From positions 1 to 64,000 of the forward strand of contig JAUNOY010000009.1 in NCBI GenBank assembly GCA_030536995.1: a stretch of DNA of 64,000 nucleotides, written 5' to 3'. Positions 22,569-38,871 of this stretch are shown here, piece by piece. Numbering within the stretch: the stretch's first letter is position 1; every line of letters starts with the position of its first letter. The notes beneath the pieces are model-generated. The model made no database searches, was not told where the DNA came from, and saw nothing but the letters and a program-made list of their open reading frames with translations. A program made the position numbers and the translations under genes. The DNA is from Eubacteriales bacterium (GTDB taxonomy: Bacteria > Bacillota > Clostridia > Lachnospirales > Lachnospiraceae).

Positions 22569-24188
22569 TCAATCCATCTCTCTTACAATCTTACGAACAG
22601 GCAGTACAAAGGTCGGAGAAACAGAAAGCTCATCCAGTCCCATTTCCACGAAACGCTCTGTGAGAGTTGTATCTGCTCCAAGCTCACCGCAGATACCTGC
22701 CCAGATTCCCTCTTTATGGGCATTATCCACTACCATCTTAATCATACGCAGGACTGCCTCATGATGAGAATCATAGATGTTGTCAAGTTTCGCATTCTGA
22801 CGGTCAATAGCAAGTGTGTACTGAGTCAGATCGTTGGTTCCGATACTGAAAAAATCAACCTCTTTTGCAAGAAGGTCACTGATCATAACAGCAGCCGGAG
22901 TCTCAATCATAACTCCCTGCTCTACATCATCCTTAAACGGAATGCCCTGCTCTGTCAGTTCCTTTTTCACTTCTGCAACAATTTCTTTAATCTGCAGAAC
23001 CTCTTTTACAGAAATAATCATCGGATACATAATGGAAATATTTCCAAACATCGCCGCACGGAACAGAGCTCGCAACTGTGTCTTGAATACTTCCGGTCTG
23101 TCAAGACAGATACGAATTGCGCGATATCCCATTGCAGGATTCTCCTCATGCGCCATATTGAAGTAATCAATCTGCTTGTCAGCGCCGATGTCCAGAGTAC
23201 GAATGATAACCTTCTTACCGGCCATATTCTGAGCAACTGTCTTATAAATCTGGAACTGCTCTTCCTCTGTAGGATAGTTATCTTTCTCCAGATAAATAAA
23301 TTCACTTCTGAAAAGACCGATACCTTCGGCATCATTTGCAAGAACACTTGCCACATCAGCTGTGCTTCCGATGTTTGCATAAAGGTGAAGCTTACGTCCG
23401 CTCTTTGTTTCTGTTTGTTTTCCCTTTAATTCCCTGAGCATGGTTCTCTGACGAAGCTCCTCATCCTTCAGTTCCTGATACTTCTTTAAAGTTTTTTCAT
23501 CCGGTTCAAGGATAAGAGTTCCGTTTTTGCCATCCACAATTGCCATCATACCATTTACACTGTCATCATACTCAATGTTGATCAGAGCCGGAATATTCAT
23601 AGTTCTGGCAAGGATTGCCGTATGAGAGTTAGAAGAACCTTTTCTTGTAACAAATGCCAGCACCTTGGATTTGTCCATCTGGACTGTTTCACTTGGCGCA
23701 AGGTCTTCTGCCACAATAATTGACGGCTCAGAAGCTTCCATATCCCCGTCTCCATGTCCGGAAAGAACTCTTACAAGACGGTCGGAAATGTCTTTTACGT
23801 CTGCTGCTCTTGCTCTCATATAATCATCGTCCATGCTTGCAAACATAGATGCGAAGTTGTCACCTGTTGTAGCGACTGCATACTCTGCATTTACGCCCTC
23901 TGTGCGGATAATATTGCTGATAGAATCCAGATAATCCCCATCCTCCATCATCATCTGATGAACTTCAAAGATGGCTGCGCCTGACTCTCCTACTTCCTGA
24001 ACTGCTTTATCGTAAAGCTTCTGAAGCTGTGCAAGCGCAGTTGCTTTCGCCTCGTCTACACGTTTTACTTCCGCTTCCACGTCCTCTATATGAAAACGCT
24101 TCACGCTTGTGTCTGCTTTCTGAAAAATAGAAATTTTTCCGATTGCAATTCCGGAAAATACGGATTTACCTTCAAATACTTTCATCAT
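22569..24188 (-). CDS. ptsI: PTS enzyme I
   Basis: A 539-residue cytosolic phosphotransferase that takes phosphate from PEP to HPr. The phosphorylated H189 lies in GSSNSHTAILAR; the PEP-binding TIM barrel has GLFRSEFIYL and GICGELGADT. Two adjacent ATGs (24188, 24185) follow AGGAG; the second has the better spacing. It is 24 bases after ptsH. Confidence 0.97.
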   Translation of the reverse strand: MMKVFEGKSVFSGIAIGKISIFQKADTSVKRFHIEDVEAEVKRVDEAKATALAQLQKLYDKAVQEVGESGAAIFEVHQMMMEDGDYLDSISNIIRTEGVNAEYAVATTGDNFASMFASMDDDYMRARAADVKDISDRLVRVLSGHGDGDMEASEPSIIVAEDLAPSETVQMDKSKVLAFVTRKGSSNSHTAILARTMNIPALINIEYDDSVNGMMAIVDGKNGTLILEPDEKTLKKYQELKDEELRQRTMLRELKGKQTETKSGRKLHLYANIGSTADVASVLANDAEGIGLFRSEFIYLEKDNYPTEEEQFQIYKTVAQNMAGKKVIIRTLDIGADKQIDYFNMAHEENPAMGYRAIRICLDRPEVFKTQLRALFRAAMFGNISIMYPMIISVKEVLQIKEIVAEVKKELTEQGIPFKDDVEQGVMIETPAAVMISDLLAKEVDFFSIGTNDLTQYTLAIDRQNAKLDNIYDSHHEAVLRMIKMVVDNAHKEGIWAGICGELGADTTLTERFVEMGLDELSVSPTFVLPVRKIVREMD

Positions 24189-24212
24189 CTATCTCCTAAC
24201 TTAAGGACGAAA

Positions 24213-24470
24213 TTAAAGATTTGCTTCAAAGAAAGCTTTCATTACTTCTGCATCTGCTGCTTCTGTATCGCCTTCAACTGTTACTGTGATTTCATCGTTC
24301 TGCTTTACAGCAAGTCCCATGATTCCGAAGATTTTTTTCGCATCGCCTTTTTTCTCACCTTTGCAGATAGTGATTGTACTTCCAAGCTTACCTGCCTCTT
24401 TAACAAGAAGTCCCGCCGGTCTTGCATGAATTCCCAGTTCATCTTTAATTACATAATTGAATGATACCAT
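24213..24470 (-). CDS. ptsH: HPr phosphocarrier lacking Ser46
   Basis: An 85-residue PTS carrier. H15 in GIHARPAG accepts phosphate from enzyme I. In Gram-positive HPr the regulatory Ser46 lies in KSIMGVMSL; here the block reads AKKIFGIMGL, with lysine at 46. HPr kinase could not phosphorylate the usual site, so catabolite repression by HPr(Ser-P)/CcpA would need another HPr or Crh. First gene of ptsH-ptsI. Confidence 0.95.
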   Translation of the reverse strand: MVSFNYVIKDELGIHARPAGLLVKEAGKLGSTITICKGEKKGDAKKIFGIMGLAVKQNDEITVTVEGDTEAADAEVMKAFFEANL

Positions 24471-24576: not shown

Positions 24577-25578
24577 TTATTTGGCATTTTCACGGAAAAA
24601 GTGTAGTTTATTCAGGTAAAAAATATAGCCTGTGCCTGTAAACAATGCCGTTTTTCCCAGAGAAAGAATCCCTTCTGCTTCTGCGGGCGTTTGGGGAAGC
24701 ATAAAATAAAGCCTTATATTTTCGCTCATCTCCCAAATTTTCCTCTGCCAGAAACCAAAATCTGACCACTTTCCCGGTATCCAGTCTCCTGGTATATCAA
24801 GCAGAGAAATCATCTTCCACAGAACCACCGTCAGAACAGCGACTCCCAACAATGTCCATGCAGTCCTGACCGCTCCCGTTTTTCCCTTTCTTTTTCCCAG
24901 TATTCTCACTGAAATATCAGCAGGCAGTAGAAACACCATAGAAATCATAACAATCCTGATAAAACCTGTGTTTTGTTTCTTACCGGACAACCCGTTTCTC
25001 ATAAGAAATCCTTCTGTATCATCCCTGATAAAAACCCTGTCGTATGTCAGTTTTTTATCTTTTTGCGGCCGGATATAGAGTACCTGCTGCGAAAAAGGAA
25101 GTACCTTTCTCACAGTATACTCTCTTCCCTGAAACTCAATTTTACCACCTGGCTGACAGCTTCCAAAAAGTATATCGGCAGTACGCCTGTCTATTACACA
25201 GCCTTCCCTGTCGTCCTCAGCAAACCCTCTGAGCCTCCAGTCAAATATCGTTTCATTTCCTGCAAGCCCCGCTGCAAAAACCTCCGTACTTCTGCTGTAA
25301 TCCTTCTGGCTGATTTTTTCAAGCCCCATGTCTCTGTAAAAACAGACTTCTGCCGGATTACGGGTATTTTTTTCACTGTCCAGAATTTCCGATACGCGAC
25401 TGTCATCCGGAACAGGTGAAAGCAAAAACACTGTATCCTTCTTCTCCTGCAGGACACTTCCGGCAGATATCAGCCCGCACAGGAACAATCCAAGAATTAT
25501 TACTCCACAAAAGATTACCTTTATTCTGTCTGAAAAACCGATTTTGGGCGGGTATTTGCCCGCGCTGTTCCCTGTCAT
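24577..25578 (-). CDS. MacB/FtsX-like permease without ATPase
   Basis: A 333-residue membrane protein. One N-terminal transmembrane helix (about 20-42), an extracytoplasmic domain to about 205 and three more hydrophobic segments give the MacB permease plan. The domain contains VIDRRTADILFGSCQPGGK and REYTVRKVLP, which match the MacB periplasmic-domain pattern (LAKxLFGxxxPVGK ... FTVVGV). It overlaps the adaptor gene by 4 nt and is the last gene of a four-gene operon with two sugar-type permeases. No ATPase is encoded nearby in the operon. Function unknown. Confidence 0.65.
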   Translation of the reverse strand: MTGNSAGKYPPKIGFSDRIKVIFCGVIILGLFLCGLISAGSVLQEKKDTVFLLSPVPDDSRVSEILDSEKNTRNPAEVCFYRDMGLEKISQKDYSRSTEVFAAGLAGNETIFDWRLRGFAEDDREGCVIDRRTADILFGSCQPGGKIEFQGREYTVRKVLPFSQQVLYIRPQKDKKLTYDRVFIRDDTEGFLMRNGLSGKKQNTGFIRIVMISMVFLLPADISVRILGKRKGKTGAVRTAWTLLGVAVLTVVLWKMISLLDIPGDWIPGKWSDFGFWQRKIWEMSENIRLYFMLPQTPAEAEGILSLGKTALFTGTGYIFYLNKLHFFRENAK

Positions 25579-26918
25579 GGCTCCATCAGCCTTACACGGC
25601 TGCCGTCTGTGATTTCTCTGTCACTATAAGTAATAATCCTCTGATCTGCCGCAAGAATCCCCTCCTCAAGCGCAGCAATCGAAGTATTTTTATTTTTCAC
25701 ATCCACATGTACCTTACGCGCCACAAGCACTTCTCCAAGAACGGTTTCCTGTGTATCCGCTACATAAACGAAATTTTTTCCATTTTCTTCCCCCAGCGCT
25801 CCCAGAGGTACGCAGGCACTATAAGGCCCTTCTTCCCGGGAAATTTCAAAATTCACATTTTCTCCGATTCTGAAATCAGCATCTGATACGGCAATGGATA
25901 TTTTGCGAAGCTCCTGGTTCTCCTCTGTCTCTCCCACAGCCTCTATGATTCCTGTCTTTTCTATCCCGTCTGCACCTGTAAGAGCCGCTTTTTCACCTGT
26001 CTGTACGTATTTAATCTCCTCTGCGCTCACAGTTGTTTCCACACGAAAAGTTCCTGTTGTTTCATAGAGCACCATAGCTGCATCCTTCCCTGTCATACTT
26101 CCGGTTACTGCAGAAATACTCTTTACCACTCCGTCAACAGGCGCTTTCACCCGTCCTTTTCTTTTGAGGATTTTATTTAATTTTTCAAGCTCTTCCTGTG
26201 CCTGTGCCAGTTCTCTCTTCACATTTTCCACGGTACTGTCCCTGCTTTCTTCTACCCCGGCATCCTCAATTCCGCGTCTGGCTGCCAGTTTATCCTGATC
26301 TCTGCTCATAACTGCCTGATCAATAGCCTCCTGACACATCCTGATTTCGTCCAGCAACGCCTGCTCCTGTGTCTTATCCACTGGTTCATCTGTGAAATCG
26401 CTGGAAAGAGAGGCGTAATAATCCTCAAGCTTCTGTCTTGCTGCCTCTAGTGCCCTCTGCGCATTTGAAATGTTCACACCGCCGTTTCCCGCCGCTATGT
26501 TATAATCCTCCTGCGCCCTTCGAAGAGCTCTGTCCTTTGCCTCCTTTTTCATCTGAGCCTGACTCTCCAAATCGCCGATTTGCAGGGTTAATTCCTGTAT
26601 CTCATCTTCTTTTTCCCGAATGATTTCTTTCATCTGCTTCACGGAATATACAAGAAGTGTTTCTCCTTTTTTCACGGTCTGTCCCTCACGTACCAGGACC
26701 TGCGCCACGAGCTGATTTTCCAGGGCAAAAACCGCACGTTCCTTCGTCCCCTCAACTCTTCCGCTTCCCCGTACAATGTGGGAGACTGTCTGATTTTGAA
26801 TTTTTCCTGTCTCAACCTGCGCTACACTGATGGATGACGCAGCTCTTGATACTACAGTAAAAATAAGCATCGCTGCAAAAAACATTCCGCACCATTTCAA
26901 AATTTTCTTTCTGTCCAT
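25575..26918 (-). CDS. MacA/HlyD-like adaptor protein
   Basis: A 447-residue membrane-fusion protein. After a single N-terminal anchor (14-27) come the first lipoyl half (VLVREGQTVKKGETLLVY), a long coiled-coil hairpin (about 115-245), the second lipoyl half (GRVKAPVDGVVKSISAV) and beta-barrel domains. In MacAB-type machines such adaptors link a permease to the exterior. Here it lies 2 bases after a sugar-permease gene and is coupled to a MacB-like permease, an unusual mix. AAGGAG precedes the ATG. Confidence 0.85.
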   Translation of the reverse strand: MDRKKILKWCGMFFAAMLIFTVVSRAASSISVAQVETGKIQNQTVSHIVRGSGRVEGTKERAVFALENQLVAQVLVREGQTVKKGETLLVYSVKQMKEIIREKEDEIQELTLQIGDLESQAQMKKEAKDRALRRAQEDYNIAAGNGGVNISNAQRALEAARQKLEDYYASLSSDFTDEPVDKTQEQALLDEIRMCQEAIDQAVMSRDQDKLAARRGIEDAGVEESRDSTVENVKRELAQAQEELEKLNKILKRKGRVKAPVDGVVKSISAVTGSMTGKDAAMVLYETTGTFRVETTVSAEEIKYVQTGEKAALTGADGIEKTGIIEAVGETEENQELRKISIAVSDADFRIGENVNFEISREEGPYSACVPLGALGEENGKNFVYVADTQETVLGEVLVARKVHVDVKNKNTSIAALEEGILAADQRIITYSDREITDGSRVRLMEP

Positions 26919-26920
26919 TT

Positions 26921-27763
26921 TTACTCCTTAATCGCTGTTGAAATAATCCCCTGCTCCAGATAATCCTGTCCTGCAAGAAAAACAAGCACTGCAGGAATCA
27001 GTACGATAACCGAAACTGCAAAAGCTTTTCCTGCCTGTGACGCATCAATTTCCGGAAGATACAGGGACAAACACCATAATTCTTTGTTTTTCAGAAATGC
27101 CATCGGCTGTTCAATCAAATTCCAGTATTCCAGAAATCCCAGAACAAGCGCTGAAATAATTCCGGGCGACCCCAGCGGAATGCCAAGCTTCCAGAAACAA
27201 AGCCACTCTCCTGCTCCGTCAATCCGTGCAGCCTCAAGAAGAGCCGCAGGAATTCCTTCAAAAAAACGATACATAATAAACACCGGAAATGTAGAAAAAA
27301 TTCCCGGAAGAATAATTCCCGCAAGCGTGTCCAAAAGCCCCAGTCCGTCAAGTACCAGATAATTACTGAGCATCAATACCTGAAATGGCATCATCATCAA
27401 GGCAATATAAATCAAAAACAGGACATTTTTTCCGGGAAATTTATATTTTGCAAATCCCCATGCTGCAGGTACGCCAATCAGAATCTGTCCCACAAGAACT
27501 CCGGCTGTAATTTTCACAGAGTTCCAGAACATCACGAAAAATTCCGGCGAATCCAGCAATACCTCTATGTACGCCCGAAGCGTAGGATACAACGGCAGAA
27601 ATTTCCACGATATATAGCCTCCCTCTCCTGTGAGAAAAGGTTCCAGTACCTGTTTTAATTCCTGACTTCCCATAATTGATCCTGCCACTGTAAACAGAAT
27701 GGGAAAAACAGCCAGAAAAACAAGCGCTGCCAGAATCCCATTCAGTAAATATTTGATTTTCAT
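26921..27763 (-). CDS. Carbohydrate ABC transporter permease, MalG type
   Basis: A 280-residue inner-membrane subunit with six predicted helices. The EAA loop EAARIDGAGEWLCFWKLGIP, which contacts the ATPase, is canonical. A long extracytoplasmic segment after helix 1 is usual for MalG. It begins 4 bases after the MalF-type gene. An ATPase subunit is missing; many Firmicute sugar importers share a multitask MsmK-like ATPase encoded elsewhere. Confidence 0.92.
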   Translation of the reverse strand: MKIKYLLNGILAALVFLAVFPILFTVAGSIMGSQELKQVLEPFLTGEGGYISWKFLPLYPTLRAYIEVLLDSPEFFVMFWNSVKITAGVLVGQILIGVPAAWGFAKYKFPGKNVLFLIYIALMMMPFQVLMLSNYLVLDGLGLLDTLAGIILPGIFSTFPVFIMYRFFEGIPAALLEAARIDGAGEWLCFWKLGIPLGSPGIISALVLGFLEYWNLIEQPMAFLKNKELWCLSLYLPEIDASQAGKAFAVSVIVLIPAVLVFLAGQDYLEQGIISTAIKE

Positions 27764-27767
27764 GCTT

Positions 27768-28616
27768 TTACTGCTCCTTTCCCCAGGTTTTCCATAAAAG
27801 AATAATCAATCCCAGAATAACAGCTCCGGTCACCACAGCAGCCGCAGACATTTTGTCAAGAGAAAGTTCCCTGTACCAGTTATTAAATAAGTGCTGCAAA
27901 AGATACATACTCTCCTGCGGATAATCCCCTGCCACCAGATACGCCTCCCGAAATACCTTGAAGGCATTGAGAAGAGACAGTACCGTAATTGTAAAAAAAG
28001 AAGGCATAAGATTGGGCAGTGTAATAGAAAGAAAGCATTTCCACTCTCCGGCTCCATCCACCTTTGCAGCCTCATAAAGAGCCTGCGGAATCGCTGCCAG
28101 TCCAGCCATCCAGAGTATCATATCGTATCCCAGATTCCTCCAGAGATAACTGGCAACAAGAACATAAAAAGAAGCGTCTGTATTCATCCAGTCCAATGCA
28201 GGAAGAGATAAAGCTGCCAGAACCCCGTTAAGAATCCCTCTCTTATGAAACAGAAGCTTCCATAAAAGCACCACCGATGCTACCGGAATCGCCATGGGAA
28301 GGAGAAACGTACTTTTCAAAAGCTGCTGCATTTTTTTCTGCCTTGTAAGAATCACGGCAATCAAAAGAGACAGACATACCAGAAGAGGAATACAGACAAG
28401 AAAGAACCGCAGCGTATTCATGGCGGCAAGGCGAAACGCGCGGTTTTCAAACACTGCCACATAATTTTGGATTCCTGTAAATTCCCCGCTCACTGCCCCG
28501 AAAAAAGACCGCCTCACAACATCCATACTCGGAATCAGCCAGAAAAGACTGACTCCGGCAAGACTTGGAAGTACAAACAACAGCCCTTTCCATGAGCCTT
28601 TCTTATATTTTTTCAT
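27768..28616 (-). CDS. Carbohydrate ABC transporter permease, MalF/UgpA type
   Basis: A 282-residue membrane subunit with six helices and the EAA loop EAAKVDGAGEWKCFLSITLP. It pairs with the MalG-type protein to form the translocation pore. It is the first gene of the minus-strand operon and is divergent from the solute-binding protein at 28872, with which it should work. Substrate unknown. Confidence 0.92.
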   Translation of the reverse strand: MKKYKKGSWKGLLFVLPSLAGVSLFWLIPSMDVVRRSFFGAVSGEFTGIQNYVAVFENRAFRLAAMNTLRFFLVCIPLLVCLSLLIAVILTRQKKMQQLLKSTFLLPMAIPVASVVLLWKLLFHKRGILNGVLAALSLPALDWMNTDASFYVLVASYLWRNLGYDMILWMAGLAAIPQALYEAAKVDGAGEWKCFLSITLPNLMPSFFTITVLSLLNAFKVFREAYLVAGDYPQESMYLLQHLFNNWYRELSLDKMSAAAVVTGAVILGLIILLWKTWGKEQ

Positions 28617-28674
28617 AAATTTGTTTTCCTCCGTAATACCTTCGCTCTGTACAACAATACAAAGCGTATATTTT

Positions 28675-28801
28675 CTGTGTTATCCTTAAGATAGCACAGT
28701 CATCTCTAAGGAATCTCTAAACTCCTTCCCGTCTTTTTCCGAAAAGCTTAAGAAATTCTTTTGTTTCTTTAGAGGAAGTTTAGAGAAAACACTGTTATCC
28801 T
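28675..28801. promoter_or_regulatory. Shared operator region of the divergent transporter operons
   Basis: TCTCTAA occurs at 28703-28709 and 28714-28720 (11-bp period), and its reverse-type word TTTAGAG at 28768-28774 and 28779-28785 (11-bp period). These two tandem pairs in opposite orientation suit binding of an OmpR-family regulator to each promoter. A near-perfect palindrome CTGTGTTATC-5 nt-GATAGCACAG covers 28675-28699. TATCCT (28796-28801) is a possible plus-strand -10. The response regulator at 31290 is the natural candidate. Confidence 0.6.
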
Positions 28802-28871
28802 AAAAGCATCCTAGCTGTTGAACCTCTTCACAGTTACAGGTAAAATAAAAATAAGAACAGGAGGATGCAAT

Positions 28872-31235
28872 ATGCATAAAAATAAACAAATTACAAAGGG
28901 AGTCGCTTTCGCAGCAGCCGTTGCCCTTGCAGGAATGAGTCTTTCCGCATGTCAGAGCGGCGCGGCGGACAAAGGTTCCGATAACGGCATCTCCAAATCA
29001 TCAGAAAATACAGAAGCCCCGGCTTCTGAGGAAAAAGCAATGGGACGCTATCTGGAGGAGACTATTTCCGTACCTGAAGATGCGGGCAGTATCAGGAAAT
29101 TTAAAATTCTTGATTCCGGTGTATACAGAATTCTTTATGAAAACAAGGATTTCACCCTCTGTATGGCAGAATCTCAGGATCAGGGCAAAACATGGAGTGA
29201 GGGCAAACCTGCTGCAGAGCTTCTCGGTCTTGAGAAATCCAGTTACTACTTCCCGGCTTCGGCGCTTGCCTCTGACGGCGGTATTTTCTTTACAGGTTAC
29301 CCTTCTTCCGAAAATCAGGAGGAAGCGCTGCCCAGCCGTTATTTCTACCTTTCTCCGGAAGGAGAAATCCGGGAACTGGATTTAAGCGATTCCTTAAAAG
29401 ACGACTATATTTTTATCGGTGATTTTACTGCCAAAAATACGATTCTGCTCCAGCCGATTTCCAACGGCATTATGGAATTTGACACAGACGGCACCCTTTT
29501 AAATCACTACGAAAAAGGCGGTCATTCCGAATGCTTCGGCACTTCCGGAAAATATCTGACTGTCACTATTGACGGCACAGTTCACTATTATAATCTGGAA
29601 ACAGGTAAGCCGGTAGACAATATGGATGCCCTCACCACTCAGATGAGCTCCAATCCCGGCAATCTGGAACTGACAAACACCTCCACCGTTCCCTTTGCTT
29701 TCACAGACGGAGACGATGAAAAGAGCCTTTTCTATGTAGATTCCACAGGGCTGTACCGTTATGCAGAAGGGGGAAATACTGTGGAGCAGCTCATTGACGG
29801 AAGCCTGAATTCCATCAGTTCTCCTGCTACCGGCTTTACAGGTCTGGAACATGACAAAGACGGAAACTTCTATCTTACAGGCGTGGATTACAGTTCTGAG
29901 TCAGCATCCCGGGGATTCATTTACAAATACACCTATGACCCCAATACTTCTGCTGTGCCGGGCACAGAATTAAAAATCTATACTCTGAATGAGAGCAGTC
30001 TCCTGAAGCAGGCAGCAACGGTCTTCCAGAAAAAATATCCGGATATCTATCTCAATATCCAGACAGGAATGAGCGGAGACGATTCCTTTACCTCCTCCGA
30101 CGCTGTCAAGGTTCTGAATACAGAAATCATGGCAGGCAAGGGACCTGACCTCCTTCTTCTGGACGGACTTCCGGAGGATACCTATATTGAAAAGGGGCTT
30201 CTGGAAGACATCAGCGGACTTTTCTCAGAGGCAGAGCTTCTTGATAATATAAAGGACGCCTACACCGGCGAAGATGGAAAAATCTATGCAATGCCTGTGA
30301 AATTCGCTATCCCTCTGCTTCAGGGCAAAAAAGAGGACATTGCCTCTGTCACAGACCTGACTTCTCTGGCTGACCTGGCAGAAGCACACAAAGACGAGTA
30401 TGAAGCTTTCCGCCTCTTCTCATACAGTACCATGTCACCGGGCTTACTTTTGAAATGTCTTACAGATGTAAATATGCCGGCATGGCTCAAAGAGGACGGC
30501 ACTCTGGATGGCGATGCTGTCGCCTCTTTCCTCGAAGACAGCAACCGGATTTATCAGACCAGCGCAGACATTGTAAAAGAATTAATTGCCGAATACGGAG
30601 AAGATTCCTTCTCTGCCCTGTCCTCAGAATACAGCAGACACAATATGGGCATCGGAGGTTCTGCACTGAGCGTTCTCGGAGGTAATTCACAGGCTGAATT
30701 CGGAGGTCTGTTTTCTCCTTCTGAGCTCAGCTATGTGGATTCTGTAAATAAAGCAGATTCTTCTCTTGGCGTGAAACTCTGGGATGGTCAGAGCAAAAAT
30801 ACCTTCTATCCTGAGCAGATTATAGGAATCAGCGCCAAGTCTGCAAATAAAGAAGCTGCGCAGAAATTCCTCTCCTTCCTCTTCAGTGAAGAAGGTCAGA
30901 AAATCGGCGCAGAAGTCGGTCTTCCTGTAAACAGAACCATTTATGAGGATGTAACTTACTGGACACAGGGGACTCCGGGTAAAGTTATCAGCGTTGCCGG
31001 CACCGGAAACAATCAGACAGAAGAATATACAAAACTGGAAATTTGCCTTCCTTCTGAAGAAACAGTAAAGGAAATCATCGCTTTGGGCAAAACCCTCACC
31101 GTACCTTCCAAGGACAACGCCATCATTCAGAATGCAGTCCTTGACGCAGGAACACGCTACATTAACGGAGAATTATCTCTGGAAGAAGCTGTCAACGCAG
31201 TTACACAGGAAGTAAATTTATATTTATCTGAATAA
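28872..31235 (+). CDS. Beta-propeller/solute-binding-protein fusion lipoprotein
   Basis: A 787-residue lipoprotein: the signal peptide ends in LSAC with C27 as the lipidated cysteine. Residues about 57-365 are repeated beta-strand segments with an Asp-box-like SQDQGKTWSEG, suggesting a propeller. Residues about 372-787 form a family 1 extracellular solute-binding domain, beginning LKIYTLNESSLLKQAATVFQ and containing GPDLLLLDGLP. The ATG at 28872 has AGGAGG upstream. It is divergent from its permeases and upstream of the two-component genes. The propeller half could sense a ligand or dock a partner; this is inference. Confidence 0.8.
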   Translation: MHKNKQITKGVAFAAAVALAGMSLSACQSGAADKGSDNGISKSSENTEAPASEEKAMGRYLEETISVPEDAGSIRKFKILDSGVYRILYENKDFTLCMAESQDQGKTWSEGKPAAELLGLEKSSYYFPASALASDGGIFFTGYPSSENQEEALPSRYFYLSPEGEIRELDLSDSLKDDYIFIGDFTAKNTILLQPISNGIMEFDTDGTLLNHYEKGGHSECFGTSGKYLTVTIDGTVHYYNLETGKPVDNMDALTTQMSSNPGNLELTNTSTVPFAFTDGDDEKSLFYVDSTGLYRYAEGGNTVEQLIDGSLNSISSPATGFTGLEHDKDGNFYLTGVDYSSESASRGFIYKYTYDPNTSAVPGTELKIYTLNESSLLKQAATVFQKKYPDIYLNIQTGMSGDDSFTSSDAVKVLNTEIMAGKGPDLLLLDGLPEDTYIEKGLLEDISGLFSEAELLDNIKDAYTGEDGKIYAMPVKFAIPLLQGKKEDIASVTDLTSLADLAEAHKDEYEAFRLFSYSTMSPGLLLKCLTDVNMPAWLKEDGTLDGDAVASFLEDSNRIYQTSADIVKELIAEYGEDSFSALSSEYSRHNMGIGGSALSVLGGNSQAEFGGLFSPSELSYVDSVNKADSSLGVKLWDGQSKNTFYPEQIIGISAKSANKEAAQKFLSFLFSEEGQKIGAEVGLPVNRTIYEDVTYWTQGTPGKVISVAGTGNNQTEEYTKLEICLPSEETVKEIIALGKTLTVPSKDNAIIQNAVLDAGTRYINGELSLEEAVNAVTQEVNLYLSE

Positions 31236-31244
31236 GCAAATGAG

Positions 31245-31285
31245 GGGCGTGTGAAAAAACTTTCGTTTTTCACACGCCCTTTTTA
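31245..31285 (+). terminator. Bidirectional terminator
   Basis: GGGCGTGTGAAAAA pairs with TTTTTCACACGCCC around a short loop, then T5. It separates the lipoprotein gene from the convergent response regulator gene. Confidence 0.9.
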
Positions 31286-31289
31286 TTTC

Positions 31290-31967
31290 TCATTTATACA
31301 CTTCCATCACATAACCTACGCCTCTCACAGTTCTGAGGTCTAACGTGCTCTCCACAGTTTTCAGTCTCCGCCTGAGAAAATGAATGTAATTATCAAGATT
31401 TCCTTCTTCCACATCGCTTTCCAGTCCCCATACGCGGTTCAGGAGTACGTTTCTCGGCAGAGTCTGCCCCGGATTTCGCAAAAACACCTCCAGAAGCTCT
31501 CCCTCCCGTTTCGACAGCGTACACTCTTTTCCATTTCCTTTCAGCCGGTTGTCTTCCGGATCGAAGCTTATATCTCCAAGATTCAGAAGAGACGTTTCCT
31601 TCCAGTTTCCCGGACGCCTGAAAATGCAGCGGATGCGGGCAAGAAGCTCAGAAAAAGCAAATGGCTTCACCATATAATCATCTGCGCCGCAGTTTAATCC
31701 CGTAAGCCTGTCATTAAGTTCCCCCAGAGCAGTAAGCATAATCACCGGCGTGGAAACATGCGCTTTTCGCGCAGCCTTCAATACAGAAACGCCGTCCATA
31801 GAAGGAAGCATCCTGTCAAGAATTACCAGATCGTGAGCTTTTTCCTGCATGTAATAAAGACCTTCCTCCCCGTCTGTACAGACGTCCGTCTCAAATCCTT
31901 CTTTTTCAAGCTGAAACCTCACAGATTCCGCCAGATCTCTATCGTCTTCAATCATCAGTATTTTCAA
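31290..31967 (-). CDS. OmpR-family response regulator
   Basis: A 225-residue regulator. The receiver has acidic pocket E7-D8-D9, phospho-acceptor D51 (LVILDRMLPSMDG) and the KPF lysine; the C-terminal winged helix has NLDNYIHFLRRRL and TVRGVGYVM. I choose TTG at 31967, with AAAGGCGG seven bases upstream; the ATG at 32006 has no ribosome site. It is divergent from its kinase gene and probably controls the 28675-28801 operators. Confidence 0.93.
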   Translation of the reverse strand: MKILMIEDDRDLAESVRFQLEKEGFETDVCTDGEEGLYYMQEKAHDLVILDRMLPSMDGVSVLKAARKAHVSTPVIMLTALGELNDRLTGLNCGADDYMVKPFAFSELLARIRCIFRRPGNWKETSLLNLGDISFDPEDNRLKGNGKECTLSKREGELLEVFLRNPGQTLPRNVLLNRVWGLESDVEEGNLDNYIHFLRRRLKTVESTLDLRTVRGVGYVMEVYK

Positions 31968-32123
31968 TATAAAACCGCCTTTCTCTCGCATTATATTTTT
32001 TATCATATCACAAAATTCTCTATTTTTTCTGTAAAAAATTCTGAATTTAGATTTAATTTAAAGATTTCCATGTTATACTGAGCCTGTTAAGATACATCCA
32101 TCATATTCAAAAAGGAGATACCT

Positions 32124-33392
32124 ATGTTTCGCAAATTTCATATACAGATGACTATTTTCTCCACCTTTATCACAAGTACGATACTCGTCCTCATGGCCAT
32201 TGCCTGCCTGTTTATTTCCGAAAAAGGCACAAGGGACAATATCTATACCTCCTTCCGGGATAATGCCAGCTCCTGTATTGCCCATCTTGAAAATCAGACC
32301 CTCATTTCCCATCAGTGGATTCAGAAAACAGAAAATTCCTACGGGCTGCATATTGATATCAGAGATAATGGAAATCCTCTCTTTTTTCAGAAACTCAATC
32401 CCGATGCCGAAGTATCCGACGCAATGGAAAAAGCAGCGGAAATATCAAGAGACACTCAGGGGCTTGACCTTACAACAACAGGAAATATGATTACAAAAAC
32501 TGCTTATTTTAAAATGGCGCCTTATTACGCTGCCACTGCCCTCATTCCGAAAAAACAGGGAACCTTAAGCGTTATCATTCTCTACCCTCTGGATTCCCTG
32601 AACAGGCAGCTTGCCACCCAGAGATTTTTCTTTGCAGGCGCAGTTCTGGCAGCTATTGCAGCTCTTGGCGTTTTTTCATGGTTTTTTACCAGAAAAATGA
32701 TTCTGCCTCTGGCGGAAAGTCAACGAAAACAGACGCAATTTATTGCTGCAGCCTCCCATGAGCTTCGCTCTCCTCTTGCAGTCATTCTTTCCGGTATCTC
32801 CGCCCTGAAAAAAGCAGAGGCAGAGGAACAGCCCCGCTTTCTCAGTCTTATTGAAAAAGAAGGAACAAGAATGTCAAGACTTGTAAACGATATGCTTTCC
32901 CTTGCAAACGCAGACAACCATTCCTGGACAATGTTCCCCTCTTCCTGTGAACTGGATACTCTGCTTCTTGACACCTACGAAAAATACGACTCCCTGATGG
33001 CAAAAAAACATCTGCGTTTTCATATAAATCTCCCTGCTTCCTCTCTTTCTCCCTGTATTTGCGACCCGGGAAGAATCAGTCAGGTTCTCGGGATTCTTCT
33101 TGACAATGCCATAAGCTATGTTCCGGAAGGAGGAACTGTCTGTCTTTCCTTAGAAGAGACAGAAAGCAATTTCCGGATTTCTGTCTCAGACAATGGTCCC
33201 GGTATTCCGGATGAAGCAAAAAAGACCATCTTTCAACGCTTCTACCGGGCTTCTGATTCCCGAAATGACAAATCTCATTTTGGTCTTGGCTTATGCATTG
33301 CCAAAGAAATCATCGTTTTACACAAGGGAAGTATTGCAGTAACCGACGCTCCCGAAAGCGGCGCTTTATTCCTTATCAGACTTCCAAAGTAA
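32124..33392 (+). CDS. Sensor histidine kinase
   Basis: A 422-residue membrane kinase. Transmembrane helices at about 9-31 and 166-188 enclose a roughly 130-residue extracytoplasmic sensor. The H box SHELRSPLAV has phospho-acceptor H212; the N box (LDNAISYV), DNGPGIPDE and GLGLCIAKEI of the ATPase domain follow. AAGGAG precedes the ATG. It is divergently transcribed from the response regulator and close to the transporter locus it likely senses for. Confidence 0.93.
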   Translation: MFRKFHIQMTIFSTFITSTILVLMAIACLFISEKGTRDNIYTSFRDNASSCIAHLENQTLISHQWIQKTENSYGLHIDIRDNGNPLFFQKLNPDAEVSDAMEKAAEISRDTQGLDLTTTGNMITKTAYFKMAPYYAATALIPKKQGTLSVIILYPLDSLNRQLATQRFFFAGAVLAAIAALGVFSWFFTRKMILPLAESQRKQTQFIAAASHELRSPLAVILSGISALKKAEAEEQPRFLSLIEKEGTRMSRLVNDMLSLANADNHSWTMFPSSCELDTLLLDTYEKYDSLMAKKHLRFHINLPASSLSPCICDPGRISQVLGILLDNAISYVPEGGTVCLSLEETESNFRISVSDNGPGIPDEAKKTIFQRFYRASDSRNDKSHFGLGLCIAKEIIVLHKGSIAVTDAPESGALFLIRLPK

Positions 33393-33470: not shown

Positions 33471-34727
33471 TTATTCACTTCTAAGCGCATCAATCGGATT
33501 TAAGTTCGCTGCTTTCACAGACGGGAGCAGTCCGAAGACAACACCGATCACTGTAGAAAACAGAACTGCAACAAGAATCGCCGGTACACTGATTGCCGTA
33601 GGCGAGCCCGAGAATTTGCCCACCACCTTCGACAATCCAATACCCAGAACAACTCCTACAATTCCGCCAATACTGGTAAGTACAGCCGCCTCTGTAAGGA
33701 ACTGTCCGAGAATTGTTTTCTTTCTGGCTCCGATTGCCTTCTTCAAACCAATTTCCCTTGTTCTTTCTGTAACAGAAACAAGCATGATATTCATAACACC
33801 AATGCCACCGACAAGAAGGGAAATACTTGCAATCCATATAAGCTGATTGTTTGTCCTCTTGCTCAGATTCTGAAGATCTCTTACCTGCTGCATAATATCA
33901 TCTGCCTGATACTTCAGTTCTGTAGCGTTATGCTTATTGTTTATTGCCTCATTGAGAACCTCTGCCGCTGCATTTCCAACTGTACTCATAGCATCTGTAC
34001 TGTCTGCTTTAATGATTGCATTTTCTGCTTCATCAAACTGGAAAGGAATCGGCCAGCATGCATTGGGAATCATCACACAGCCAATCACATTCTGGGAGTA
34101 TGTCCAATACTCGTCAATTGATTCGATATTCGGCTGGTAATCTGCATCCTGACGGACAATTCCAACCACTGTAAAAGGCTCCTGACTGATTTCAATCGTC
34201 TTTCCAAGAGGATTTTCTCCGGGGAAAAGGTTTTCTGCCGCATTACTATCCACAAGGGCAACTTTTCGATAAGACTTATAATCCGCATCTACAAATCCAC
34301 GACCTGACTGAACAGAATAGCCGCAGGTACTCAGATAATTGATGTCTATGCCATATACGCTTCCTCCCTGAAGACTGTTGTTATTGTAGTACACACTGTT
34401 TGTACCTGTTCTGCTGTTAAAAAATGTAGCGTTCTTTACATGTTCAAGTTCACGCACTTTTTGTTTCAGCTCTTCTGTAAGAACAGGCGTCACCGCATTG
34501 CTTCCGTATTCCGGATTGTACTGCATATCTCCTTCTTTCAGATATACATTTACCGTATTCGTTCCGGCTCCGATCAGATCTTCTTTAATCTGTTCACTTG
34601 TTCCCTTAATGGTGGAAACAATTGCAATAATGGATGCAATACCAATAATAATACCAAGCATCGTCAGGAAAGATCTCATCATATGGGACCAGATTCCCTG
34701 AAAAGCAAGACGTATATTCTCTAACAT
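33471..34727 (-). CDS. MacB-type ABC exporter permease
   Basis: A 418-residue FtsX-family permease. It opens with a helix at about 15-40 (SFLTMLGIIIGIASIIAIVS), has a large extracytoplasmic MacB-type domain (AENLFPGENPLGK, FTVVGIV) and three C-terminal helices including LVGGIGVMNIMLVSV. The ATPase is a separate gene (36728-37399), the split arrangement usual in Firmicutes. Last gene of a four-gene operon; AAAGGAG precedes the ATG. Substrate unknown. Confidence 0.93.
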   Translation of the reverse strand: MLENIRLAFQGIWSHMMRSFLTMLGIIIGIASIIAIVSTIKGTSEQIKEDLIGAGTNTVNVYLKEGDMQYNPEYGSNAVTPVLTEELKQKVRELEHVKNATFFNSRTGTNSVYYNNNSLQGGSVYGIDINYLSTCGYSVQSGRGFVDADYKSYRKVALVDSNAAENLFPGENPLGKTIEISQEPFTVVGIVRQDADYQPNIESIDEYWTYSQNVIGCVMIPNACWPIPFQFDEAENAIIKADSTDAMSTVGNAAAEVLNEAINNKHNATELKYQADDIMQQVRDLQNLSKRTNNQLIWIASISLLVGGIGVMNIMLVSVTERTREIGLKKAIGARKKTILGQFLTEAAVLTSIGGIVGVVLGIGLSKVVGKFSGSPTAISVPAILVAVLFSTVIGVVFGLLPSVKAANLNPIDALRSE

Positions 34728-34741
34728 GAAATCTCTCCTTT

Positions 34742-36721
34742 CTAACCGTTGTAACCGTACATCTTATCCAGTGTTACTTCCTTCGTCTTCGCGCCTTCTA
34801 CCACTGTTTTTCCATAAGGGAATGCAATCAGGTCATCTGTGGTGATTCCGTCTTTTACAAGCACACTGTATCCATTGTCCACATTTCCGCCTACTGTAAG
34901 GTACTGCTTTTTCAGAACTCCCTTGTCGTCTTTGTAGACATAGCTCTTGCCATTCTCTGTGCGGACAAAAGCCTTCTGGAGAACAAGGCTGCCTTTTACA
35001 GACTGGGAGCTTTCCAGATTAATTGTGATAAAGTCATAATCACGGAACTTTATCGACTTATCAAGAACCTCCGCAGTAAGGCTGTAATAGGATGCATTCG
35101 GATTACTCATTCCCGCATATACGCTTCCGGAAATAGGATACTCGGAAATCTCCATGACTTTTGCTTCAAATTCTCCCTTATCATAGCTAATACAGTTCAG
35201 CACTGTCCCTTCTCCAATCTGATCCAGAAAAAGCTCGCTGACAGCGCCGACTACATAATAACCGTCTCCGCTTTTTACTTTGATAAAAGCAGAACCATCT
35301 GTCTTTTTCGTTACAGTATCGCCTACATAAGTAACGATTCCATCCAGCTTGCTGCTGATTAGCTTACGGTTTACTTTTTTCTCCAATTTACCGATTTTGA
35401 TGTTGCTTTCCTGAATATCAAGCTTCAAATTCGCAATCTTTCTCTGCTGATACTTGATGGCTTCTTCTCTGCTTACTGTTGTGCTTCCCGCTCCACCTCC
35501 CGGAGTTCCCGGTTCATCCGGCACCTGAGGTTCATAGGTCATCGCATCGGAAAGAGTAAATTCCGACTCCACATATTCATACACAGGCTGAGTCAGAAAA
35601 CTGCCGTTTATAAGGTAATATCCTGTGCAGGAAAGAGTTCTGTCCTGATAATCTCCAATTGTATCATTTTGATGGAATTCAAGTCGGAACCAATATCCTC
35701 CCTCTTTTTCCACCTTTGTTCCATCTGCACTGTATCCTGCCATCTTATTTAAGAAAGATCCCATAGCCGTTACACTGCCCCTTGCGCTACTCACAAGAAA
35801 TACCAGGGGATCTTTTTCCGTTCCTGTTCCCGTAAATGGTACGGAATTGGCATCCAGCTTATCATAGAACTTTTCTCTTCCGTCTGTTACCCCTTCCATC
35901 TCATCTGTAAAATAAGGGTCATAATAAGATGTATTTTCGTCCAGCTCGGGAGTCGGCGTAGGCGATGGTTTCGGCGTATCATTTTGTCCAGAAGTAATAT
36001 CATCTCCGCTATTTCCATCAGAAATTTCTTCTCCTGATGTGAAATCTCCGGCTGACGGATCCTGATATTCCGGCTCCGTTAATGCTTCATCAACTGCTGC
36101 CTGCCCCGGATTTTCTGTCCCTGCACCATTGACATCGGGCTCTTCTTCCAGTTCTCCATCCGCAAACGCACTTAACAGAAGTCGCGGAACTGCTGCTGCC
36201 AGATAAGTATCCCCATTATTCCGCTCGGTAAGAGATGCCATTTCATTATCATCTGTATCATCCGGAACATCCATATTATCCAGATTATCTGCGCTTCCGC
36301 CTCCGTCTTCTTCCAGAATCGGACCTCCGTTCTTAAGGCTGTTCAATCTGTTTACCGCTCTGTTTAAATCCTGTTCCAGTTTCTTATGCTTCAATCTTGC
36401 AATATTCAGCTCCATTTCCACCAGAGTCGTATCAAAGGAAATCAAAGGATCCCCTTTTTTTACAGTATCTCCCTCTGCTACATAGACCTGATCAATAATC
36501 ATATCGCTGTCAACAGAGACATTCTGCGCAACGCTCGTCGTAACATTGCCGTCAATACTTGTCGTAGGCATAAAGTAATCAGAAACAAGATTGCTTACAC
36601 TTGTAACCATAACCTCTTTTTGGTTATTTTTCCGAAGCTGAAGAAGACCCGCCGCTGCACCTGTTCCTGCCAGTGCGACAACTAATGCTCCTATAATTAC
36701 ACGTTTCACTATTTTATGCAT
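34742..36721 (-). CDS. MacA-like adaptor with a large inserted domain
   Basis: A 659-residue adaptor, far longer than the usual 350-450. Anchor at 9-27, first lipoyl half near 75-100, first coiled-coil arm 101-131, then an insert at about 132-417 before the second arm (418-452) and second lipoyl half (from 453). The insert is first acidic and low-complexity with a KPSPTPTPEL stretch, then a compact Trp/Tyr-rich block (about 265-395) that looks folded. It therefore sits at the hairpin tip, where MacA meets TolC in Gram-negatives. Middle gene of the exporter operon. Confidence 0.82.
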   Translation of the reverse strand: MHKIVKRVIIGALVVALAGTGAAAGLLQLRKNNQKEVMVTSVSNLVSDYFMPTTSIDGNVTTSVAQNVSVDSDMIIDQVYVAEGDTVKKGDPLISFDTTLVEMELNIARLKHKKLEQDLNRAVNRLNSLKNGGPILEEDGGGSADNLDNMDVPDDTDDNEMASLTERNNGDTYLAAAVPRLLLSAFADGELEEEPDVNGAGTENPGQAAVDEALTEPEYQDPSAGDFTSGEEISDGNSGDDITSGQNDTPKPSPTPTPELDENTSYYDPYFTDEMEGVTDGREKFYDKLDANSVPFTGTGTEKDPLVFLVSSARGSVTAMGSFLNKMAGYSADGTKVEKEGGYWFRLEFHQNDTIGDYQDRTLSCTGYYLINGSFLTQPVYEYVESEFTLSDAMTYEPQVPDEPGTPGGGAGSTTVSREEAIKYQQRKIANLKLDIQESNIKIGKLEKKVNRKLISSKLDGIVTYVGDTVTKKTDGSAFIKVKSGDGYYVVGAVSELFLDQIGEGTVLNCISYDKGEFEAKVMEISEYPISGSVYAGMSNPNASYYSLTAEVLDKSIKFRDYDFITINLESSQSVKGSLVLQKAFVRTENGKSYVYKDDKGVLKKQYLTVGGNVDNGYSVLVKDGITTDDLIAFPYGKTVVEGAKTKEVTLDKMYGYNG

Positions 36722-36727
36722 TCTGTG

Positions 36728-37399
36728 TCACCCCTTTTCTCGCAGTTCGCCGTCACGGATGGTAACCACTCTTTTCGCATGAGCCGCAATGTCCGGGTCA
36801 TGAGTAATCATAAGCACTGAAACTCCTTCATCGTTCAATTTCTGAAACAGCTCCATAACCTGAGCTCCTGATTTACTGTCCAAAGCTCCTGTAGGTTCAT
36901 CCGCAAGAAGAAGTCTCGGACTGTTCACAATTGCTCTTGCAATAGCCACTCTCTGCATCTGTCCTCCTGAAAGCTGATTCGGACGGAAGTCTACTCTATC
37001 TGCCAGCCCTACTCTTTCCAGGGCACGTAACGCCCGTTCTTTTCGTTCTTTTTTCGGAACTTTTGCATAATTAAGCGGCATTTCCACATTTGACAAAGCG
37101 CTCTGTTTCGGCAGAAGATGAAAGCTCTGGAATACGAAGCCGATCTTGTGAAGTCTGATATCTGACATGGCATTTTCCGAACATTTCCCGATATCCTCAC
37201 CATCCAGGAAAAAAGTTCCTTCTGTCGCCTTATCAAGGCAGCCTATGATATTCATAAGCGTTGTCTTTCCGGAACCGGAAGGCCCCATAATCGCTACATA
37301 CTCCCCTTCTTCCATGGAAAAATTTACATCTTTCAATACCGGAACTTTCATCTTTCCCTGCTGGTACTCTTTATAAATTCCTTTTAATTCCAGTATCAT
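36728..37399 (-). CDS. MacB/LolD-type ABC exporter ATPase
   Basis: A 223-residue ATPase with Walker [16 protein letters not shown], signature [14 protein letters not shown], Walker [13 protein letters not shown] and switch MITHDPDIA. This is the MacB-type nucleotide-binding protein for the FtsX-like permease at 33471. It overlaps the upstream adaptor gene by 4 nt (ATGA). Confidence 0.95.
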
Positions 37400-38871
37400 C
37401 CTTCAGCGCCTCCTATGATCTCAGTCTCTGCAGATTCACTCTCCGTACCAGGCGCTCCATCCATCGGAATCAGCTCTTCTCCGTCAGTAAAACCGTCAGA
37501 AATCTCGCCGGAATCCATATCTGACATTCCGTCTTCACCAACCATTTCGCCTCCTGACATATCTGCTTCTTCCATATCGTTTGTCACCATTTCCTCATCA
37601 AGAGGAGCTTCCATATCCAGACCCTCATCAGGATTTACATCTGCGCCCATCATCTGTGTGATATCTCCAACCTCTGTCGCGTTTCCTTCCTCAAGAACAT
37701 CTGTCGGGAATGCAATACAATCTTTCTTCGTCAGACCGTCTACAATCTCATATTCGCCAAGCTCATCGTCGTGCTTGCCAAGAATAACCGGACGTTTTTC
37801 CAGCCTGTTCTTCTCGTCGGCTGCCCATACAAAAGGATTCTCCGTATCTGCTCCTACAATATAGTAGTCACTAAGCCACAAACCTTCCTTCACATCTGCC
37901 TGTCCCAGATCTCTTTCAATATATACGTGCTGCCCAAGCATCAGTCCTTCTGAAGATTCCAGCTCCACATAAAACGGATATGAAGTAGATGTGGTTTGTT
38001 CGTCGGTGGTACTCATCCCGAAATACATATCATTTTCATCTTCTGAGCTGCCATTCTGCATATCCACCTCTCCCATGGTTCCCTTCCAGGTAAGATTCTG
38101 ATCCACTCTGGAGCGAATGATCACAGGCTCTCCGGGTGTCACTTCATTCATCTCATTTACTTTTCCCTTAATCCTGTACGCACCAGTGCTCAGAATCTTG
38201 ATAAAAGCATTGCTCTGTTCTTCATCGCTTCCGTAATTAATCCCCTCGTCAATAACCTCTCCATCTTCACTGGTCATCTTGGACGTGTCAATCTTCTGGA
38301 TAACACCATCCAGCGTACTGCGTACCTCAGTATTTACAGTCGCGCTCTGGAGCCGCTCAATTTCCGCAGCTTTACTCTTCTGGTCATATTCATTTTTCTT
38401 AAGACTCATTTTATTGGTTTCAATCTCAATGGTGTAAGAAAGCTGTTCACTTTGCTTTGCCTTCTTTTTTTCTTTAATGAGCGTATTAATCTGCTCCTGA
38501 AGGCTGATCGCCTCATTCTTCAGACGGTCAAAGTCAAGCTGTGCCTGCTGAAGATCTTCCTGAATACTGCTTAAATCATATTCAAAAAGCAGCTGACCTT
38601 TCTTTACCTCTTCGCCCTCTTTCACCCGTACTTCTTTCACCTTACGACCGCTCTCAATCTCAACATCTACTGTTTCCTGCGGTTCCACTACACCTGCATA
38701 ACGGTTCATAACTCCGGAAGTCACACCTGTCAGCTCCTCTATGGAGGATACAAATACGACCGTATCATTCCCCGGCTGCTGGCTGTTGCCCCGGAAATAA
38801 TACCATGAGCCGGCGCCGATGACCCCCGCTGCTATCAGAATTCCCAGAACGATTAAAATTCGTTTTTTCAT
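37396..38871 (-). CDS. MacA-like adaptor with acidic Met-rich tail
   Basis: A 491-residue adaptor. N-terminal anchor (4-26), lipoyl halves split by a coiled-coil hairpin (about 110-175), beta-barrel and membrane-proximal domains. The last 80 residues are acidic, Met/Gly-rich and disordered in appearance (EEADMSGGEMVGEDGMSDMD). It is the first gene of the operon. Two different adaptors with one ATPase and one permease imply a heteromeric adaptor ring or alternative assemblies. GGGAGG precedes the ATG. Confidence 0.88.
   Translation of the reverse strand: MKKRILIVLGILIAAGVIGAGSWYYFRGNSQQPGNDTVVFVSSIEELTGVTSGVMNRYAGVVEPQETVDVEIESGRKVKEVRVKEGEEVKKGQLLFEYDLSSIQEDLQQAQLDFDRLKNEAISLQEQINTLIKEKKKAKQSEQLSYTIEIETNKMSLKKNEYDQKSKAAEIERLQSATVNTEVRSTLDGVIQKIDTSKMTSEDGEVIDEGINYGSDEEQSNAFIKILSTGAYRIKGKVNEMNEVTPGEPVIIRSRVDQNLTWKGTMGEVDMQNGSSEDENDMYFGMSTTDEQTTSTSYPFYVELESSEGLMLGQHVYIERDLGQADVKEGLWLSDYYIVGADTENPFVWAADEKNRLEKRPVILGKHDDELGEYEIVDGLTKKDCIAFPTDVLEEGNATEVGDITQMMGADVNPDEGLDMEAPLDEEMVTNDMEEADMSGGEMVGEDGMSDMDSGEISDGFTDGEELIPMDGAPGTESESAETEIIGGAEG

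Follow-up and report, generated by a model that had tools for sequence, protein, structure and literature searches.

The 64-kb window analysed here (the whole stretch of DNA, 64,000 nucleotides of contig JAUNOY010000009.1 from a Lachnospiraceae bacterium) carries a cassette of permease, adaptor, lipoprotein and two-component genes that we read, with a probability of roughly 0.55, as a CUT1-type ATP-binding cassette (ABC) importer, powered in trans and equipped with a constant extracytoplasmic membrane fusion protein (MFP), usually a partner derived from the MacB core (MacBx), and a dedicated two-component system. The gene set, its order and conservation, a common regulator box, the absence of an FtsX domain and the one MalK-type ATPase found in the genome point to this reading, and from them we infer the physical assembly, the direction of import, a tube and its docking.

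Permeases, adaptor and lipoprotein of the cassette

The genes for two MalFG-type permeases (PermF and PermG), the MFP and MacBx form an operon on the minus strand (28616-24577), head to tail in that order (Table 1), with 4 nt between PermF and PermG, 2 nt between PermG and MFP, and a 4-nt ATGA overlap between MFP and MacBx. A GGAG-type stretch lies 5' of every start, no promoter- or terminator-like pattern was seen at the junctions of the operon, and a search for a promoter or terminator directed at the short gap between 26918 and 26921 likewise found none. The lipoprotein gene is divergent from this operon. The two-component pair of the original prediction consists of two real genes, which are divergent from each other and not co-oriented in one operon. 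The predicted joining of two MalFG-type permeases to a MacA-like adaptor holds in its open reading frames (ORFs), coordinates and BPD_transp_1 and HlyD_3 matches, and its reading as a single unit is strongly supported, because MFP and MacBx stay with the permeases in relatives and the genes have a regulator box in common.

The source genome (2.83 Mb, 40 contigs, completeness 92%) was compared with relatives that include Blautia and another Lachnospiraceae metagenome-assembled genome. MacBx neighbourhoods were collected at the level of genus, family, order and class, giving 99 loci including the window, which were picked via MacBx matches and so do not measure the frequency of MacBx itself. An MFP gene is present at 98 of the 99 loci, and within 10 kb these 98 carry PermF at 94, PermG at 95, a solute-binding protein (SBP) at 90, the response regulator at 71 and the kinase at 65. 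Separation of the MFP and MacBx genes from the permeases was looked for in these relatives; PermF is missing at four loci, namely L062, L097 (where PermG is present), and L142 and L172 (contig ends). The only locus without an MFP, L063, holds a MacBx remnant (9428-9937) directly adjoining a true MacB set, the remaining cassette being gone. The 4-nt MFP/MacBx overlap recurs in 27 of 29 genus loci, and beyond the genus the arrangement seen most often is a kinase-regulator pair divergent from co-directional lipoprotein-PermF-PermG-MFP-MacBx. At E 1e-8, MacBx was found in 25 of 294 genomes of the order sample, 4 of 343 of the class sample and 2 of 348 of the phylum sample (each including this genome). 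Identity to the window proteins among genus loci is 62-78% for the permeases, 35-48% for the lipoprotein, 32-54% for the MFP and 24-37% for MacBx.

A reverse search from PermF (E 1e-70) placed the permease clade in 84 of 298 family genomes, at 102 places; this tally and the family-wide one for MacBx are lower bounds, with the best 7-8 candidates per genome scored. Fifty-four of the places do not coincide with loci selected by MacBx. Of these, 40 were fetched: 20 with no MacBx match, or at L198 a weak match, and, from the 34 of a lower-scoring sister clade, another 20, leaving 14 of its places unfetched. The 20 sister-clade loci are monophyletic in the PermF tree (support 0.92). An MFP gene is present at 17 of the 20 loci with no or a weak MacBx match and at 18 of the 20 sister-clade loci. 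Among the latter 18, a lipoprotein of the same family adjoins at 15, a MacB-core protein is found at 16 by profile and at a 17th (L220) by eye, and a regulator or kinase of the window type is found above threshold at none; a different, weakly similar two-component pair lies nearby at L217. On these gene counts the constant partner of the permeases is the MFP, not MacBx. In the sister cassettes (L202-L221) lipoproteins often flank the permease-MFP genes on either side. At L182-L190 and L195-L197 the MFP and permeases are kept, at many also the two-component pair, and MacBx was not found.

By hydropathy scan, from which all transmembrane (TM) counts here are taken, the MFP has a single N-terminal TM helix; it also has two lipoyl-type stretches that flank a long helical insert. 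Its HlyD_3 match (2.8e-6) lies over the cut-off and its RND_mfp match (1.6e-17) below; HlyD_3 is matched by 26 of 30 family members at E 0.01, and the family profile matches the structures of MexJ, ZneB, MacA and EmrA. In the MacBx family an N-terminal TM helix is followed by a core of ~165 residues and mostly two or three further TM helices; by hydropathy scan the window protein has three TM helices and most relatives four, and a P-x2-W-x-D motif (WSDFxFW-type; P268, W271 and D273) is invariant before the last of them in an alignment of 25. MacB_PCD is matched by 15 of 25 family members at E 0.1. FtsX is not matched in the window MacBx, is absent from the 13 families matched among 25 MacBx members and was not found in three sister-clade proteins, whereas the genuine MacB encoded alongside (33471-34727), taken as positive control, matches both MacB_PCD (1.2e-32) and FtsX (2.6e-21). 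The MacB-like permease of the original prediction is thus not borne out, and the identification of MacBx as a MacB permease was rejected, the FtsX domain being unmatched and six aligned sister-clade relatives having two TM helices only. Since these homologues combine two TM helices with MacB_PCD matches over the cut-off (three of three scanned), they support a view of MacBx as a MacB core without the permease domain. The two-TM proteins of the sister cassettes (L202-L221) also carry an invariant PYWEN motif, and an in-frame fusion at L209 (10590-12260) joins a C-terminal HAD-like hydrolase domain to the MacB-core protein.

The ATG at 28872, preceded by aggagg, is the preferred start of the lipoprotein (lipobox LSAC), over the less likely TTG listed at 28818. 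Residues 376-696 match SBP_bac_8 (1.4e-14) and SBP_bac_1 (1.5e-13), both over the cut-off, and an SBP_bac_1 match with an E of at most 1 is found in 24 of 25 family members. The nearest solved relative of this half is CbpC (7x0o, 2.8e-27), which we take to be a cellodextrin-binding protein. In the N-terminal half an Asp-box (S-x-D-x-G-x2-W) is invariant, and the family profile matches solved sialidases at the Asp-box (sialidase A, E 1.1e-10). The solute-binding part of the predicted fusion therefore stands, and a propeller-like N-terminal half is plausible from the Asp-box/sialidase match. A stand-alone protein resembling the propeller half, without a solute-binding domain, lies between the lipoprotein and regulator genes at L101 (17003-18037). 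Extra lipoprotein-like ORFs of the same family adjoin the main one at L040 (16652-19494), and L179, L180, L183, L190 and L193 also have more than one lipoprotein.

Permeases of this kind grip their ATPase at the EAA, or (E/D)AA, loop. This loop is conserved in PermF in a 16-sequence alignment, down to 49% identity, and is read in the translation of PermG as EAARIDGAGEW; PermG also matches the UgpE/MalG models, below their cut-offs. No ATPase gene is present in the operon, as had been predicted, and the closest ABC_tran match, 8.5 kb away, is part of a neighbouring MacAB set. One OB_MalK-type ATPase was detected in this genome (92% complete), at a separate locus. The 53 permease-domain matches of the genome form 21 close pairs, 14 of which have no ABC_tran within 5 kb when the eight weakest of 91 ABC_tran rows are excluded. 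Because so many permease pairs are in the same position and one MalK-type ATPase lies elsewhere, the missing ATPase is ordinary, and the notion that it is remarkable was rejected. Four relatives (L061, L124, L125 and L134) have an ABC ATPase with OB_MalK over the cut-off directly after PermG, and at L130 an OB_MalK ATPase (over the cut-off) lies ~1.4 kb beyond the lipoprotein gene; these five, with the gene in or near the cassette, name a MalK-type ATPase as the likely energiser, and PermF and PermG would use the one encoded in this genome. As described in a section of PMC7658222, one multitask ATPase (MsmX, MsmK) energises several CUT1-type importers in Firmicutes.

The two-component system and its boxes

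The features of an OmpR/PhoB-type regulon are present at the cassette: a Response_reg plus Trans_reg_C regulator, a HisKA/HATPase kinase and direct-repeat boxes. At genus loci, TCTCTAAA occurs in 75 of 100 regions upstream of the PermF, lipoprotein, regulator and kinase genes, compared with at most 18 of 100 for any 8-mer in five shuffles, and 72 of the 86 same-strand TCTCTAAA pairs within 60 bp are spaced by exactly 11 bp; neither count is made of independent cases, since the genomes are related and divergent genes have common intergenic regions. PhoB binds two repeats at 11-bp spacing, according to part of PMC2648988. With a matrix built free of the window, the two top sites of the 64-kb window (28.6 and 23.5) both lie between the PermF and lipoprotein genes, compared with best sites of 8.8-13.4 in five shuffled windows (near-identical matrix). 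Its third and fourth sites, which are weaker (14.5 and 13.4), fall between the regulator and kinase genes. The exact double core CTCTAAN5CTCTAA has two sites genome-wide, and these are boxes 1 and 2.

The same matrix was run on 69 loci that had not been used to train it, taking the best site per fetched stretch (up to 20 kb); the set includes extra copies from same-genus genomes (L062), and several of its regulator-less loci are cut by contig ends. Where the regulator is present, the top site fell upstream of a cassette gene at 41 of 45 loci, and where it is lacking at 3 of 24, with median top scores of 21.6 versus 8.8 (shuffles 6.2, maximum 20.8). Two of the four misses among the 45, L118 and L178, are true ones; at L179 and L180 the script did not count a second lipoprotein gene, and it is just upstream of this gene that the top site lies. 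Because a common box is found upstream of the operon, the lipoprotein gene and the regulator gene, the adaptor, permease and lipoprotein genes, and probably those of the two-component system, constitute one regulon, in which the regulator would bind to the direct-repeat boxes.

The two-component pair and its boxes, with the exact double core found in the genome only at the cassette, could also be those of a sensing device, in which the kinase would respond to the occupancy or ATP cycle of a transporter-like receptor, in the manner of Bce-type transporter-kinase pairs, with bulk uptake secondary. The presence of the response regulator at 71 and the kinase at 65 of the 98 loci agrees with such a device. 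We nonetheless consider it decidedly unlikely, since the MFP and permeases are kept without such a regulator above threshold at 27 of the 98 loci (some of them cut by contig ends) and at 18 of 18 MFP-bearing sister-clade loci. Moreover, the two TM helices of the kinase surround an extracellular stretch of its own of ~138 residues, unlike in Bce kinases, which are intramembrane-sensing. The predicted uptake-and-response or sensing machine is therefore upheld in part, and sensing looks like a regulatory layer of the importer, not the machine's essence.

Proposed mechanism and the neighbouring genes

In the mechanism that we propose for the importer, the solute-binding half of the lipoprotein would capture the ligand and the propeller-like half would bind a partner on the surface or wall. 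The MFP, held by its one TM helix, would oligomerise as a ring or tube between membrane and wall, and MacBx, with the MFP-docking domain type kept and the permease domain lost, would seat this tube beside or over PermF and PermG. With or without the MacB core, the MFP would organise the path of the ligand to PermF and PermG, which would import it, driven by a common MalK/MsmX-type ATPase encoded elsewhere, and the two-component system would turn on the cassette and its own genes via the 11-bp direct-repeat boxes. Docking of MacA-type MFPs on the extracellular domain of MacB (PMC5985334) and a Gram-positive pump in which the MFP is a hexameric tube docked on a MacB-like transporter (PMC5768738) have been described in sections of these papers. 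More tentatively, and jointly, we suggest that the cassette may represent the first binding-protein-dependent ABC importer family to need an HlyD-type adaptor tube, an importer-driven trans-wall conduit widespread in Lachnospiraceae, and that it could have arisen from refitted MacAB parts, with the MFP kept, MacB cut to its docking core and the motor replaced by MalFG and a MalK-type ATPase.

Several observations weigh against the importer reading. In all cases known to us, MFPs are parts of exporters. The MacBx cassette occurs in only 30 of 60 genus genomes (E 1e-3), and locus L062 has SBP, MFP and MacBx but neither PermF nor PermG in 20 kb. The window MacBx (333 aa) matches MacB_PCD below threshold only (21.5 bits, cut-off 27). 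In one group, a profile that can miss divergent cores (for example that of L220) detected no MacBx at 15 of the 17 loci with an MFP, so that MacBx cannot be indispensable to the cassette; because the MacBx-less loci sit among MacBx-bearing ones in the PermF tree, this pattern suggests loss of MacBx at the 15 loci. The next ORF, scanned in six of the MacBx-less loci (L182, L183, the neighbour of L184, L185, L195 and L196), was MacB-like in none, that at L196 being without any match, and L197, one of the 15, ends at a contig edge 293 nt after the MFP gene. Regarding the boxes, CTCTAAN5CTCTAA cores with one mismatch have five further sites elsewhere in the genome, and a backward control pattern has 31 genomic matches at one mismatch. 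The exact repeat TCTCTAAA-N-TCTCTAAA has zero occurrences in the window and the single 10-mer AATCTCTAAA is not enriched there at one mismatch (5 versus 10.1 expected), so that the boxes of the window are variants. Lastly, no catabolic family recurs beside the cassette among 25 of 127 flanking families, and the flanking genes offer no common hint of a substrate; this tally was made from 101 of 302 flanking ORFs, chosen by hand for their length at MacBx loci that do not belong to the genus set.

The absence of a recurring catabolic family would be expected of an importer of something other than a sugar (a peptide, an antibiotic, or a wall or host-glycan fragment) in which the MFP and MacBx serve as a local chaperone or gate, not as a tube. 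The fast divergence of the extracellular parts, namely MacBx, MFP and lipoprotein compared with the permeases, and the likeness of the Asp-box domain to sialidase blades would also fit; we judge such an importer very improbable, as CbpC, presumably cellodextrin-binding, is the nearest solved structure to the SBP half, and the divergent cassette at L192 (12278-16191), whose MFP is short, has an alpha-L-rhamnosidase gene and a GH43 gene after it. These neighbours, the only substrate hint seen, point to a possible plant-glycan ligand at L192. No glycoside hydrolase is among 25 of the 127 flanking-gene families, and a sugar-degradation locus was accordingly rejected as a candidate, L192 being the sole exception.

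Beside the kinase gene lies a true MacAB-type set, and a MacB like that of this set was seen at 13 of 28 other genus loci, several of which are cut. Its position would suit two machines under one regulon, a plain importer and an export or wall-maintenance device of MFP and MacB core that borrows an ATPase and a permease, for example those of this set, both machines answering one signal with no contact between them; the export role of every MFP known to us and the ability of MacBx to be absent by itself speak for the same arrangement. We regard two such machines as unlikely, given that the MFP is kept with the permease clade across both order and class, and also in the sister clade, that MacBx has no FtsX domain to drive, and that no regulator box scoring above background occurs at the MacAB operon next door. 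Outside the genus loci, moreover, no such MacB was found in the fetched stretches except at L063, and with these two findings the neighbouring MacAB set was rejected as part of the cassette. Downstream of MacBx, on the same strand and 106 nt away, lie genes for HPr (ptsH, 24203-24470) and PtsI (together 22569-24470); a phosphotransferase system link was rejected, PtsI being near the cassette in only some relatives.

Table 1. Positions and assignments of the cassette genes, regulator boxes and neighbouring features in the window.
Feature	Position	Strand	Assignment
PermF	27768..28616	-	MalF/UgpA-type permease (CUT1), (E/D)AA loop kept; BPD_transp_1 1.6e-15
PermG	26921..27763	-	MalG/UgpE-type permease (CUT1); BPD_transp_1 9.3e-15
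MFP	25575..26918	-	HlyD/MacA-like adaptor; HlyD_3 2.8e-6
MacBx	24577..25578	-	Putative MacB-core-derived membrane protein without FtsX domain; MacB_PCD 3.2e-4
Lipoprotein	28872..31235	+	N-terminal Asp-box (sialidase-like, propeller-like) domain and C-terminal solute-binding domain
Terminator-like hairpin	31242..31282	+	3' of lipoprotein gene
Response regulator	31290..32006	-	OmpR/PhoB-type, start probably 31970; Response_reg 2e-27, Trans_reg_C 2.3e-18
Sensor histidine kinase	32124..33392	+	HisKA 2.5e-16, HATPase_c 2.6e-24
Regulator box 1	28699..28725	+	11-bp direct repeat of TCTCTAAA type; window-free matrix score 23.5
Regulator box 2	28764..28790	-	Window-free matrix score 28.6, best of the window
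Weaker candidate regulator box	32042..32068	-	Between regulator and kinase genes; window-free matrix score 14.5
Weak candidate regulator box	32013..32039	+	Between regulator and kinase genes; score 13.4, equal to best shuffle
MacAB-type set	33471-38871		Next to kinase; complete, with two different MFPs around one ATPase (MFP-ATPase-MFP-MacB)

Relation to known transporters and regulons

Importers and MFP-based exporters are usually regarded as separate, and no description of a combination of CUT1 permeases, MFP and MacB core was found in open-licence PMC full texts; papers that such a search did list dealt, by title and abstract, with tripartite pumps, the MacB family and peptide resistance. 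The MFP kept with importer permeases across genera, at most MacBx-bearing loci next to one regulator whose box marks the cassette, suggests an MFP role outside export, and the cassette offers a Gram-positive system for asking what the adaptor does without an outer membrane. With its permease clade in 84 of 298 sampled family genomes, it represents an uncharacterised capacity of common gut anaerobes, and its promoter box can be used in a reporter for identifying the signal and the substrate.

Bce-type sensing transporters consist of a BceB-type FtsX-family permease with a large extracellular domain and a BceA ATPase; unlike these, the cassette has neither an FtsX domain nor an ATPase. Mce/MlaFEDB-type importers combine an ABC importer with an extracytoplasmic protein tube, and an importer with a tube is likewise proposed for the cassette; in contrast to those systems, its tube candidate is an HlyD-type MFP and its permeases are of CUT1 type. 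As in PhoB-type regulons, described in part of PMC2648988, direct repeats spaced by 11 bp lie upstream of the targets and the regulator, whereas the repeat of the cassette is TCTCTAAA and the exact double core is found in the genome only there.

In the Gram-positive MacAB pumps YknWXYZ and Spr0693-0695, as described in sections of PMC5768738 and PMC5985334, an MFP gene adjoins that of a membrane protein with a MacB-type core, as it does here; unlike these pumps, the cassette is without a MacB-type ATPase or FtsX permease domain and has importer permeases and an SBP. Of the features of a MacAB-type (Type VII) pump, it has the HlyD/MacA-like adaptor, and because the FtsX permease domain and an operon MacB-type ATPase are both absent we do not file it with these pumps. 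Of the features of a CUT1 (MalFGK2-type) importer, it has a binding protein of SBP_bac_1/8 type and two BPD_transp_1 permeases with EAA loops; the MalK-type ATPase that would serve it is encoded at another locus. Like the CUT1 importers served by a multitask ATPase (MsmX of Bacillus subtilis, MsmK of Streptococcus pneumoniae; sections of PMC7658222), the cassette joins an SBP to two MalFG-type permeases, with no ATPase in the operon and one MalK-type ATPase elsewhere; unlike them, it adds an MFP, a MacB-core gene, a propeller-like SBP fusion and an OmpR-type two-component system. Each part comes from a known family, and we would class the combination as a variant CUT1 importer with parts taken over from MacAB, and not among the MacAB pumps.

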